64,000 nucleotides of DNA. It comes from Sphaerochaetaceae bacterium. GTDB lineage: Bacteria; Spirochaetota; Spirochaetia; Sphaerochaetales; Sphaerochaetaceae. The stretch spans positions 1 through 64,000 of the forward strand of contig JAKSPE010000007.1 of NCBI GenBank assembly GCA_024405015.1. The letters run 5' to 3'. Position numbers and translations under genes: made by a program. A model generated the notes under the pieces. That model was not told where the DNA came from, made no database searches, and worked only from the letters and a program-made list of their open reading frames with translations. Positions 9,100 through 54,036 of the stretch are shown here, one piece after another; position 1 is the first letter of the stretch; each line of letters starts with the position of its first letter.

Positions 9100-9348
9100 C
9101 TTTTGGCAAGTGGGAAAAATGAATTTGGCAGGTCGAAATACGATGTTTTTGAGAAAAAGACACTGATATTTCAATAATTTACACAAATTCCGTAAAAAAA
9201 ACTTACGAAATGCAAAAAAATGGATAATCAAATATTAGTGCGGCAATGATTTTACTAAAATTTTAAAGACACTTTGTCGCTAAAATACGGACACTTTTTT
9301 GATAAAATCCTATGAAATTACTTATAATTTATGCCTTGCATCAGAGCG
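9100..9348. other. AT-rich intergenic stretch
   Basis: This A/T-rich gap lies upstream of the divergently placed hydrolase gene (9047) and before the structured element at 9349. No gene or convincing paired promoter was found in it. Confidence 0.4.
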
Positions 9349-9448
9349 GGGGACTTGCCTTACGTGCTCCTGGTTGTCCGCACTACAGGCCGGCTTTGCT
9401 TCGGACGCAATGCACCTGCGTCCTCTTACCGCAAAGCTTCAAGTCCCC
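9349..9448. repeat. tRNA-linked structured element, copy A (behind tRNA-Leu)
   Basis: This is a folded element of about 100 bp. The outer stem is GGGGACTTG (9349-9357) with CAAGTCCCC (9440-9448). Hairpin 2 is GCCT-tac-GTGC paired with GCAC-tac-AGGC (9357-9390). Hairpin 3 is GCTTTGC (9393-9399) with GCAAAGC (9431-9437), and inside it GGACGCA (9403-9409) with TGCGTCC (9417-9423). A homologous element with the same layout but different paired bases lies at 46296-46393. It sits 55 nt behind tRNA-Leu, beyond the terminator. Its far end repeats the tRNA-Leu 3' sequence imperfectly in the tRNA's own orientation. Confidence 0.75.
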
Positions 9449-9466
9449 ATGAGAGCCCATCAAAAA

Positions 9467-9500
9467 CAAAAGCCCCGGGCTTTTTGCCCAGGGCTTTGTT
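9467..9500. terminator. Bidirectional terminator behind tRNA-Leu
   Basis: AGCCCCGGGC (9471-9480) pairs with GCCCAGGGCT (9486-9495) with one mismatch. It has an A-rich left flank and T-rich right flank, so it can serve the minus-strand tRNA. Confidence 0.7.
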
Positions 9501-9502
9501 TT

Positions 9503-9582
9503 TGCGGGCGGGGGGACTTGAACCCCCACGGTTGCCCATAGGAACCTAAATCCTACGTGTCTGCCAGTTCCACCACGCCCGC
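9503..9582 (-). tRNA. tRNA-Leu (anticodon TAG)
   Basis: The minus strand folds as a class II tRNA. Acceptor GCGGGCG pairs with CGCCCGC, the anticodon loop is TTTAGGT (TAG), there is a long variable arm, and the T arm contains GGTTCAAGTCC. The discriminator is A and CCA is not encoded. A promoter lies upstream with -35 TTGATT and -10 TATAAG 17 bp apart (9594-9622 on this map). Confidence 0.95.
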
Positions 9583-46212: not shown

Positions 46213-46295
46213 TTGGATACCCCTGATTCTGCAGATATCCTATTTTATACTTTTCCAACATTGAAATACAAGGATTAACTTTCATACACCTGACA

Positions 46296-46393
46296 GGGAC
46301 CGCCCTACGGCGCTTTCAGGGAAGGGCGCGCCTACGGGCCGGCTTTGCTTCGGATGATTCTCAATCATCCTCCTATCGCAAAGCTTCGATCCC
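46296..46393. repeat. tRNA-linked structured element, copy B (behind tRNA-Arg)
   Basis: It has the same architecture as 9349-9448. The outer stem is GGGACCG (46296-46302) with CGATCCC (46387-46393), one mismatch. Hairpin 2 is GCCC-tac-GGCGC with GCGCC-tac-GGGC (46302-46339). Hairpin 3 is GCTTTGC (46342-46348) with GCAAAGC (46378-46384), enclosing GGATGAT (46352-46358) and ATCATCC (46364-46370). It lies 54 nt behind tRNA-Arg, beyond the terminator. Read on the minus strand, its far end repeats the tRNA-Arg 3' end (CGRTCCCTGYCAGGYGTA, 15 of 18 identical). Confidence 0.75.
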
Positions 46394-46410
46394 CTCATGT
46401 GAGGACAATA

Positions 46411-46445
46411 AAAAACGGAGAACCCCAGTTGGGATTCTCCGTTTC
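46411..46445 (-). terminator. Terminator of tRNA-Arg
   Basis: ACGGAGAA (46415-46422) pairs with TTCTCCGT (46435-46442), with an inner C/G stem. On the minus strand a T run follows. Confidence 0.85.
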
Positions 46446-46446
46446 T

Positions 46447-46520
46447 TACGCCTGGCAGGGATCGAACCTGTAACCTGCGGATTCGAAGTCCGACGCTCTA
46501 TCCAATTGAGCTACAGGCGC
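46447..46520 (-). tRNA. tRNA-Arg (anticodon TCG)
   Basis: On the minus strand: acceptor GCGCCTG with CAGGCGT (one G-U), D arm TAGCTCAATTGGATAGAGC, anticodon loop CTTCGAA (TCG), and T arm CAGGTTCGATCCCTG. The discriminator is A and CCA is not encoded. Confidence 0.95.
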
Positions 46521-46594
46521 AACTGCTAATGATAGTAATGGTTCTTACTGATAACGTCAATAAATGTGGACAAATATGCACGTCAACAGAAGAA

Positions 46595-52758: not shown

Positions 52759-53490
52759 TCATGTGTCATAAGACTGATAACTCTCCTGAACCAGGTCTTT
52801 GCTGTCTTTCCACTGTAGTTTCGGATTTACTTTGAAAAGCTGGTTTTCCGTGTTCTGTGAAAGTCGTGCAACATGGCCCTCAATTGTTTCTCGGTATTCC
52901 TGCAAAGGCTTTGATAGCAACTTCACAACTTGAGCAGGATATAGCCCTCCATAGAGGTCATAAAACAGCCGAAGATCCCTTTTGTCGAATTCTCCTTTAT
53001 ACCACTCCATGAATGTTGATTTTTCATATCTGAGACCAATCGCATTGCTATTGTGATGCCGAGGGTTGTCGAACAGGTATTTTGTGTCAATGAGAAGGGG
53101 AATGTAGCCTTCCACGGGAAAGAGCCTTTCTGTGGAACTGAAAAGCCTGAATGGGTTTGTTTCAGAGAAAAGGTTTTCGTATTGGGTTCCTTTGATAATC
53201 CTATTCCAAATGAAGGGACTAAACCCAGAATTCAAGCGATGAAACGTCCTCTGAATATTTGAGCAATCATCCGAGTAGAGAAGAACATGATAATGCGTAG
53301 GCATCAGAATTGCGCCCAGTAAGATTGTTCCTTCTTCTTTGCAACATGATTTGAGATGAAATATCCAATAGTCATAGGCGATTTTGTTCTCAAATAAAGG
53401 AAGCTTTAGGGTTGTTCTCTGTACAACATGAAAAACTTTGGCATTCCGCTCAACGTTTCCTCTTTTGCCTAATCCTGGTTTTCTGGTCAT
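52759..53490 (-). CDS. REP-associated tyrosine transposase (RAYT, Y1_Tnp)
   Basis: The 243-residue protein has the Y1 transposase HUH motif M-P-T-H-Y-H-V-L-L and a preceding F-H-V-V-Q-R-T. The layout fits single-copy, domesticated RAYTs that act on short palindromic repeats rather than classic IS200/IS605 insertion. No left/right-end hairpins or tnpB gene accompany it. An AGGAG site precedes the ATG. The upstream gap (53491-54036) is rich in palindromes, and the tRNA-linked elements contain GTAG on the minus strand, a tetranucleotide typical of REPs; a link is possible but unproven. Confidence 0.82.
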   Translation of the reverse strand: MTRKPGLGKRGNVERNAKVFHVVQRTTLKLPLFENKIAYDYWIFHLKSCCKEEGTILLGAILMPTHYHVLLYSDDCSNIQRTFHRLNSGFSPFIWNRIIKGTQYENLFSETNPFRLFSSTERLFPVEGYIPLLIDTKYLFDNPRHHNSNAIGLRYEKSTFMEWYKGEFDKRDLRLFYDLYGGLYPAQVVKLLSKPLQEYRETIEGHVARLSQNTENQLFKVNPKLQWKDSKDLVQESYQSYDT

Positions 53491-54036
53491 ATAAGTGTTC
53501 TCCTGGTAATTCTTTTGGCGGGATATCCTATTTCCCTGACGCTATTCATATACCAATAAACTGTCGAAAACATTTTGCGGAATTATAGGTCGACCGGTCT
53601 GCAGGCCAGTAGGTGTGTATTTCTAAATGTAAATTATTGATGTGTAAACAATTATATAAAGGTATTAAAGGTGCGGAGGTTGTGAGGTGTGTGCGGAAAA
53701 GTCAGACCTTCGTGCCAACGCACCTAATGACCTATATGTAAGTTGTTGTAGTGTAATAAATTGTAAACGAAAATACGGACCTGCGGACCTTCGAACCGGT
53801 TGACCTATAGGTTTGTGGGCTAGGTTCCTCATGTGCATAGGCCGTTCAAGGCCTGATGCATGCCCCTTGGCAGGACGCCATGCCATGGCCGGCGCTAGGG
53901 CTTGGGGCCCGCTTGCCACGTGGCAGGCTGGAATGCACAGGCATCGAACCGCCGATGACACAATCGGACAGAACCTGGAAGGGTAAAAAAATAGGACAGC
54001 CTTTCGACTGTCCTCCAACATCTAGGAAGATGTTAA
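53491..54036. other. Palindrome-rich intergenic region
   Basis: There is no convincing gene in these 546 bp. Left part: two related AT-rich blocks starting ATGTAARTTRTTG near 53628 and 53735 (about 26 of 32 bases alike), each followed by a TGCGGA motif. Right part (about 53770-53960): clearly GC-richer, with several hairpins. These are TGCAT-AGGCC pairing with GGCCT-GATGCA (53834-53860), GCCATG-C-CATGGC (53877-53889), TGCCACGTGGCA (53914-53925) and CATCG/CGATG (53942-53957). AGGTGCG and CGCACCT (about 53669 and 53719) form a longer inverted pair. It could be repeats, an RNA gene or both. Confidence 0.6.
53987..54014 (-). terminator. Terminator of the ferredoxin gene
   Basis: AGGACAG (53993-53999) pairs with CTGTCCT (54008-54014). 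On the minus strand seven Ts follow. Confidence 0.9.

Follow-up and report, generated by a model that had tools for sequence, protein, structure and literature searches.

Small structured repeats behind tRNA genes of Sphaerochaetaceae carry arms that follow the neighboring tRNA

Introduction

Short structured repeats lie behind two tRNA genes of a Sphaerochaetaceae bacterium, and they raise the question of what kind of element occupies such sites and how it came to be there. The window analyzed here is a stretch of 64,000 nucleotides from this genome (contig JAKSPE010000007.1, positions 1 to 64,000). An earlier, sequence-only reading had proposed a small element that inserts at tRNA 3' ends and copies them, with the rtT repeats of E. 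coli as a parallel.

Results

Two copies in the window

Both elements are present on the minus strand behind tRNA-Leu and tRNA-Arg, past a terminator-like hairpin, as the sequence-only reading had described. Copy A follows tRNA-Leu(tag) (9503..9582, minus strand; ARAGORN and Rfam), from which it is separated by a hairpin and T tract resembling an intrinsic terminator (9462..9502, minus strand), recognized from the sequence. Its near arm, GGGGACTTGAA (9438..9448, minus strand), is the reverse complement of tRNA-Leu nucleotides 54-64 (TTCAAGTCCCC). Core hairpin P1 (9393..9437, minus strand) consists of a GCTTTGC/GCAAAGC stem, a GGTAAG bulge and the inner hairpin GGACGCA/TGCGTCC, and core hairpin P2 (9357..9391, minus strand) has a GTA/GTA (tac/tac) internal loop and a GGC end at the junction. 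The far arm, AAGTCCCCCGC (9346..9356, minus strand), is a direct, partly decayed copy of tRNA-Leu from nucleotide 57. Copy B shows the same order, all on the minus strand: tRNA-Arg(tcg) (46446..46521), an intrinsic-terminator-like hairpin (46406..46445), the near arm GGGGATCGAA (46385..46394), the two-hairpin core (46302..46384), and the far arm GGTCCCTGTCAGGTGTA (46285..46301), which copies tRNA-Arg 57-73 (GATCCCTGCCAGGCGTA) with 3 mismatches. Both copies fold better than shuffled sequences (z between -2.0 and -4.3).

Some details of the earlier description had to be revised. The GGACGCA/TGCGTCC pairing, which had been taken for the outer stem, is an inner hairpin, and the true outer stem is tRNA-derived (GGGGACTTG/CAAGTCCCC). 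The distance from the tRNA end to the near arm is 54 nt in copy A and 50 nt in copy B, not 55 and 54 nt. Half of the family matches its own tRNA at the terminus without a single mismatch in 17 nt, but in both window copies this terminal match is decayed. Copying of the tRNA 3' end had been seen correctly in the far arm, whereas the near arm, an inverted tRNA copy, had been overlooked.

Unit plan and arms that follow the tRNA

Read along the tRNA strand, a unit comprises the tRNA 3' end, a spacer that usually contains the terminator, a near arm that is the reverse complement of tRNA nucleotides 54-64/65, the two-hairpin core, and a tRNA copy that starts from nucleotide 57. The tRNA gene is left intact, since every unit opens with a good copy of the 3' end. 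Units are ~100-210 bp long and contain no gene; in the window's family, the near arm mostly lies 46-57 nt from the tRNA end, and the junction in most copies reads GGC followed by RA.

The arms follow the tRNA beside them. The far arm agreed with nucleotides 57-73 of its own tRNA at >=14/17 positions in 61 of 76 copies and perfectly in 38, as the predicted terminal repeat implied, compared with a mean of 8/17 against other tRNA types; the 14/17 cut-off, like the 100-nt limit for tRNA association used below, was set before counting, with one value each. For the near arm, the agreement was 9.9/11 with its own tRNA and 7.5/11 with other tRNAs. The near arm also spans nucleotides 54-56, which are missing from the far copy, and wherever the T-loop has TCC for TTC, the near arm has GGA for GAA (3/3 cases: two tRNA/tmRNA genes in the family and one tRNA-Gly of the complete genome G356, described below). 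It is often followed by a bulge of 4-6 nt and a short match to the acceptor complement, with acceptor-complement 5-mers of the element's own tRNA in 19/76 copies and of other tRNAs in 4.5%. We dropped the idea that the near arm serves as a primer-binding site of the LTR type, since this arm pairs with the T-arm and not with the CCA end.

The closest relative of a core is usually found behind another tRNA type; for example, the cores behind tRNA-Cys (L064) and tRNA-Pro (L065) score 73 over 83 nt. Near-identical cores at different tRNAs, together with arms of the local tRNA, indicate that the core moves or is exchanged.

Folding and covariation

The suggestion that the paired-base changes reflect covariation held across 63 relatives, in which 342 cells were changed on both sides of a pair compared with 100 in shuffles, and 0/500 shuffles were as high as the observed value. 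Over the 26 pairs of the structure, 92.5% of cells in these relatives were paired. The inner helices contained 1086 Watson-Crick, 11 G-T and 7 A-C combinations, while the T-stems of tRNAs from element loci contained about 7% G-T; the corresponding value for acceptor stems is unreliable, owing to misregistered ends. The rarity of G-T pairs and the about equal number of A-C combinations suggest folding as DNA, a very stable RNA being the alternative. As a separate observation, an element core at L324 appears to be inserted into the P2 hairpin loop of another element.

Distribution of the family

In the window's own genome, a blastn search with copy A found further copies behind tRNA-Met, tRNA-Pro and tmRNA, and a covariance model built from five copies added one behind tRNA-Val, giving six clear matches, all linked to a tRNA or tmRNA (tRNA-Leu, Arg, Met, Pro, Val and tmRNA). 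An improved model added a weak, truncated match behind tRNA-Ser, and one blastn match in C19, which sits inside a gene, was set aside as chance. The first covariance model matched 16 of 101 relatives. With the improved model, about 90 copies were found in 17 of 139 genomes of the order, many of which are fragmented assemblies; the matched genomes represent five genera of one family, and the named records among matched relatives are rumen Spirochaetales assemblies. The hosts are genes for tRNA-Leu, Arg, Met, Val, Pro, Cys, Asp, Ala, Thr, Lys and Ser and for tmRNA.

The expected tRNA association was confirmed, with 76 of the 90 copies lying no more than 100 nt from a tRNA or tmRNA gene. The remaining 14 comprise second copies within arrays (L041, L055, L234), copies whose host tRNA is cut at the contig start (L237, L238), copies situated <200 nt from the end of a contig (L054, L089, L099, L244), and copies with intervening DNA between tRNA and element, namely an ISL3-type IS (L050, L072, L245), an island (L100) or 1.6 kb of gene-containing sequence (L073/L249). 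The last of these (L249:4322-6160) places a lipoprotein-like gene between tRNA-Ser and the element and is a possible cargo-bearing unit. At L272:1-1530, L050 and L072, involving three tRNAs in three genomes, an ISL3-family IS lies in the terminator between tRNA and element; the ISL3 transposase adjacent to three elements was considered as an autonomous partner and dropped, since the arrangement reads as an IS inserted in a tRNA terminator. At tRNA-Pro(cgg), an integrase-bearing island (L250:4100-7740) has moved the former tRNA 3' end, together with the terminator and the element, by about 3 kb.

The own-family core pattern had no match among viral contigs, and copy A had none among phages. A pattern match in Flavobacteriaceae (L112) was dropped, as it did not match the covariance model, and an Rfam SurA match (E 5e-4) was dropped as an AT-rich flank plus terminator. 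In the open-access papers covered, we found no description of the family.

Units of the same plan in other families of the class

A second model gave weak matches in ten genomes from six other families of the class, and all 11 loci fetched from these families (L283-L293) proved to be tRNA-following units of this plan. A model-free scan of G356, a complete genome, showed that 16 of its 49 tRNAs are followed by both an inverted and a direct copy. The units of this genome comprise several core types and form arrays with periods of about 205 bp (Gln), 147 and 107 bp (Gly), 169 bp (Met) and 139 bp (Arg). Three tandem copies of tRNA-Leu(gag) in G356 (L307) were rejected as the element, being a tandem duplication with small genes; the small genes between these copies look like toxin-antitoxin pairs. 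A unit of the class searched against plasmids gave no match beyond the tRNA itself.

Gain, loss and arrays of units

For some elements, absence at the same tRNA in sister species, which the sequence-only reading had anticipated, was seen. The tRNA-Asp gene has an element in G006 (L062) and none in G005 (L152), with 91% identical flanks, and tRNA-Leu(gag) has an element in G010 (L074) and only a near-arm remnant in G009 (L157), with 98% identity. At tRNA-Cys, G009 (L104) carries a different first unit ahead of a remnant common to L064, and L104 has an extra unit relative to L064. Arrays or exact tandem copies of units occur at L055, L059 and L234, in G356, and at E. coli proK. Some of the seemingly empty sites are deletion remnants (L157, L159), and none of the compared loci revealed, at base resolution, an element newly inserted into a virgin tRNA. 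In L052 and L060, a truncated second copy follows ~100 nt after the element, and its GGTAGGAGGA is apparently the ribosome-binding site of the next gene.

Candidate enzymes

RAYT-like (Y1, HUH) transposases act on single-stranded hairpins. Among 61 genomes tested, RAYT-like proteins with strong scores were found only in element-bearing genomes, with three weak matches elsewhere, and the genes co-occur with the elements in two genera; this association is confounded by kinship, since 9 of the 11 genomes belong to one genus. The element-carrying genomes G018, G021, G043 and G054 lack RAYT-like genes, and no core motif was found beside the gene at the 20 RAYT loci searched. RAYT as the mover was thus not adopted, being associated with the elements yet neither universal nor accompanied by a core, and a RAYT-like transposase is the best candidate enzyme in the window's genus. 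A tyrosine integrase was likewise rejected: no integron-type enzyme was found in G005, G009 and G017, three element-rich genomes, which have only an Xer-like (XerC/XerD) pair.

The window itself contains an intact RAYT-like Y1 transposase gene (52759-53490, minus strand) with a ~100-nt structured repeat upstream (about 53850-53990), and this repeat also occurs by other RAYT genes of the same genome (L207-L209). In other genomes of the genus (L210-L226), RAYT-like genes lie between inverted, degenerate tandem arrays of short period (9-12 nt), which in places run into the C-terminus of the RAYT-like protein (THQTHQ).

Discussion

An explanation of these elements has to cover a family confined to the 3' ends of tRNA and tmRNA genes, arms taken from the local tRNA, near-identical cores, arrays, and the gain and loss of whole units. 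We favor, as somewhat probable, a small tRNA-anchored DNA cassette that spreads at tRNA T-loops, with the 3' end of the target copied on both sides. The core would spread as DNA, folded as a single strand or cruciform; the near arm would recognize the T-loop of the target; and the target 3' end would be copied on both sides during insertion. The original proposal of a small element that inserts at tRNA 3' ends and copies them is supported to this extent, the insertion step being one that we infer. However, whole-unit changes could also come from ordinary recombination between repeats, and a view without any mobility would hold that these are ancient tRNA-linked repeats in which local gene conversion keeps the arms in step with the tRNA and tandem duplication multiplies the units. 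The arrays and exact tandem copies agree with it, but the closest core relatives lie mostly behind a different tRNA, and of two orthologous tRNAs whose flanks are 90-98% identical, one can have an element and the other none, which leads us to regard this view as unlikely. Far less probable still is that the elements are what is left of attachment sites used by classical tyrosine-integrase islands in tRNA genes. An integrase is specific for one target, whereas a single core family occurs here at a dozen tRNA types, and the element-rich genomes G005, G009 and G017 offer only the XerC/XerD-like gene pair. In favor of this reading, islands classically leave a displaced piece of the tRNA 3' end as their footprint (Islander, PMC4383910), and in G018 such an island does lie between one element and its tRNA.

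A functional RNA, with mobility secondary, deserves more weight than these two, although we hold it to be less probable than the cassette. The unit would be a trailer of the tRNA transcript, released by processing, whose loops titrate CsrA in the manner of RsmZ and CsrB. RsmZ loops have the form A(N)GGAX closed by C-G (PMC4005645), and the CsrB loop consensus is CAGGA(U/A/C)G (PMC7652899); both hairpin loops of the units from other families fit these consensuses. In 20 such units, which were hand-picked from loci already found and share ancestry, so that the sites are not independent, the hairpin loops of the tRNA strand contained 38 CA(N)GGANG sites and those of the antisense strand 0, with 4 expected by shuffling. 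The Arg, Gln, Trp and Ser units of G356 start 4-20 nt after the tRNA, too short a distance for a terminator, and are predicted to be co-transcribed; RtT is reported to be released from tRNA transcripts (PMC4986893). In the window's family, however, the CsrA-type motif is not enriched (7 found, 12 expected) and a terminator usually precedes the unit, the rarity of wobble pairs in the helices argues against an RNA, and titration of CsrA leaves the tRNA-copying arms unexplained. From the loop sequences, CsrA titration is a serious but unproven possibility. Both ideas might even be combined, more tentatively than the RNA reading by itself, into a class-wide set of self-spreading arrays of CsrA-binding trailers through which tRNA transcription would set the CsrA level, with the window's family having lost the loops and RtT as a distant member.

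On the cassette reading, this looks like a tiny element that gains copies at tRNA genes and leaves those genes unbroken. We know of no textbook transposition mechanism that explains a repeat taking the local tRNA 3' end on both sides, with one copy inverted. For the poorly understood RtT repeats of E. coli, the elements supply an overall plan and many sequences for comparison; the idea is testable in K-12, as natural strains differ by exact proK units. If the CsrA-type loops are real, tRNA loci would be linked to a global regulator in spirochaetes.

Comparison with known systems

Several known systems resemble the units in part. Like REP/REPIN elements, the units are small, non-autonomous DNA hairpins. 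REPs have GTAG at the foot of the hairpin (PMC8266576), which is present in type I cores (GCGGTAGGAG) and changed in type II; REPs, however, are dispersed between genes without copying of a target, whereas the elements described here are tRNA/tmRNA-linked and copy the tRNA. By analogy, integron attC sites and cassettes also appear similar in having a conserved structure with variable sequence, an outer stem that spans the presumed junction, and arrays at a fixed site, but no integron-type integrase was found in G005, G009 and G017, and the units have no GTT crossover core and no gene. With tRNA-borne genomic islands the units have in common the displaced tRNA 3' fragment, but no integrase gene lies between the repeats. 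The A(N)GGAX loops closed by C-G in the other-family units resemble those of CsrB/RsmZ-type RNAs, which differ in that the units are attached to tRNA genes and that the motif is absent in the window's family.

The closest likeness is to E. coli RtT (rttR, RF00391), and the parallel drawn by the sequence-only reading was correct in detail, as RtT at tyrT and proK has the same plan. In both, tandem units follow a tRNA; each unit opens with a copy of the 3' end of that tRNA, and an inverted near arm lies roughly 100 nt ahead of the next copy. At tyrV of E. coli K-12, direct copies of nucleotides 57-73 lie at +178, +356 and +534 and near arms at +82, +260 and +438. The RtT arms correspond to tRNA-Tyr at tyrTV and to tRNA-Pro at the annotated RtT of proK, and whole-unit number is variable, with 0, 1 or 2 exact 168-bp units followed by a truncated one at proK across E. 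coli strains. The core sequence and hairpin plan differ between RtT and the spirochaete units, the Rfam RtT model (RF00391) found no match in the window stretch or in L284, L292, L303 and L312, and the spirochaete family, unlike RtT, occupies many tRNA types and tmRNA. We make no claim of a common family; judged by their sequences, RtT, described as released from tRNA transcripts (PMC4986893), and the spirochaete units turn out to follow the same plan, and the units would thus belong to a kind that was already known but differently read.
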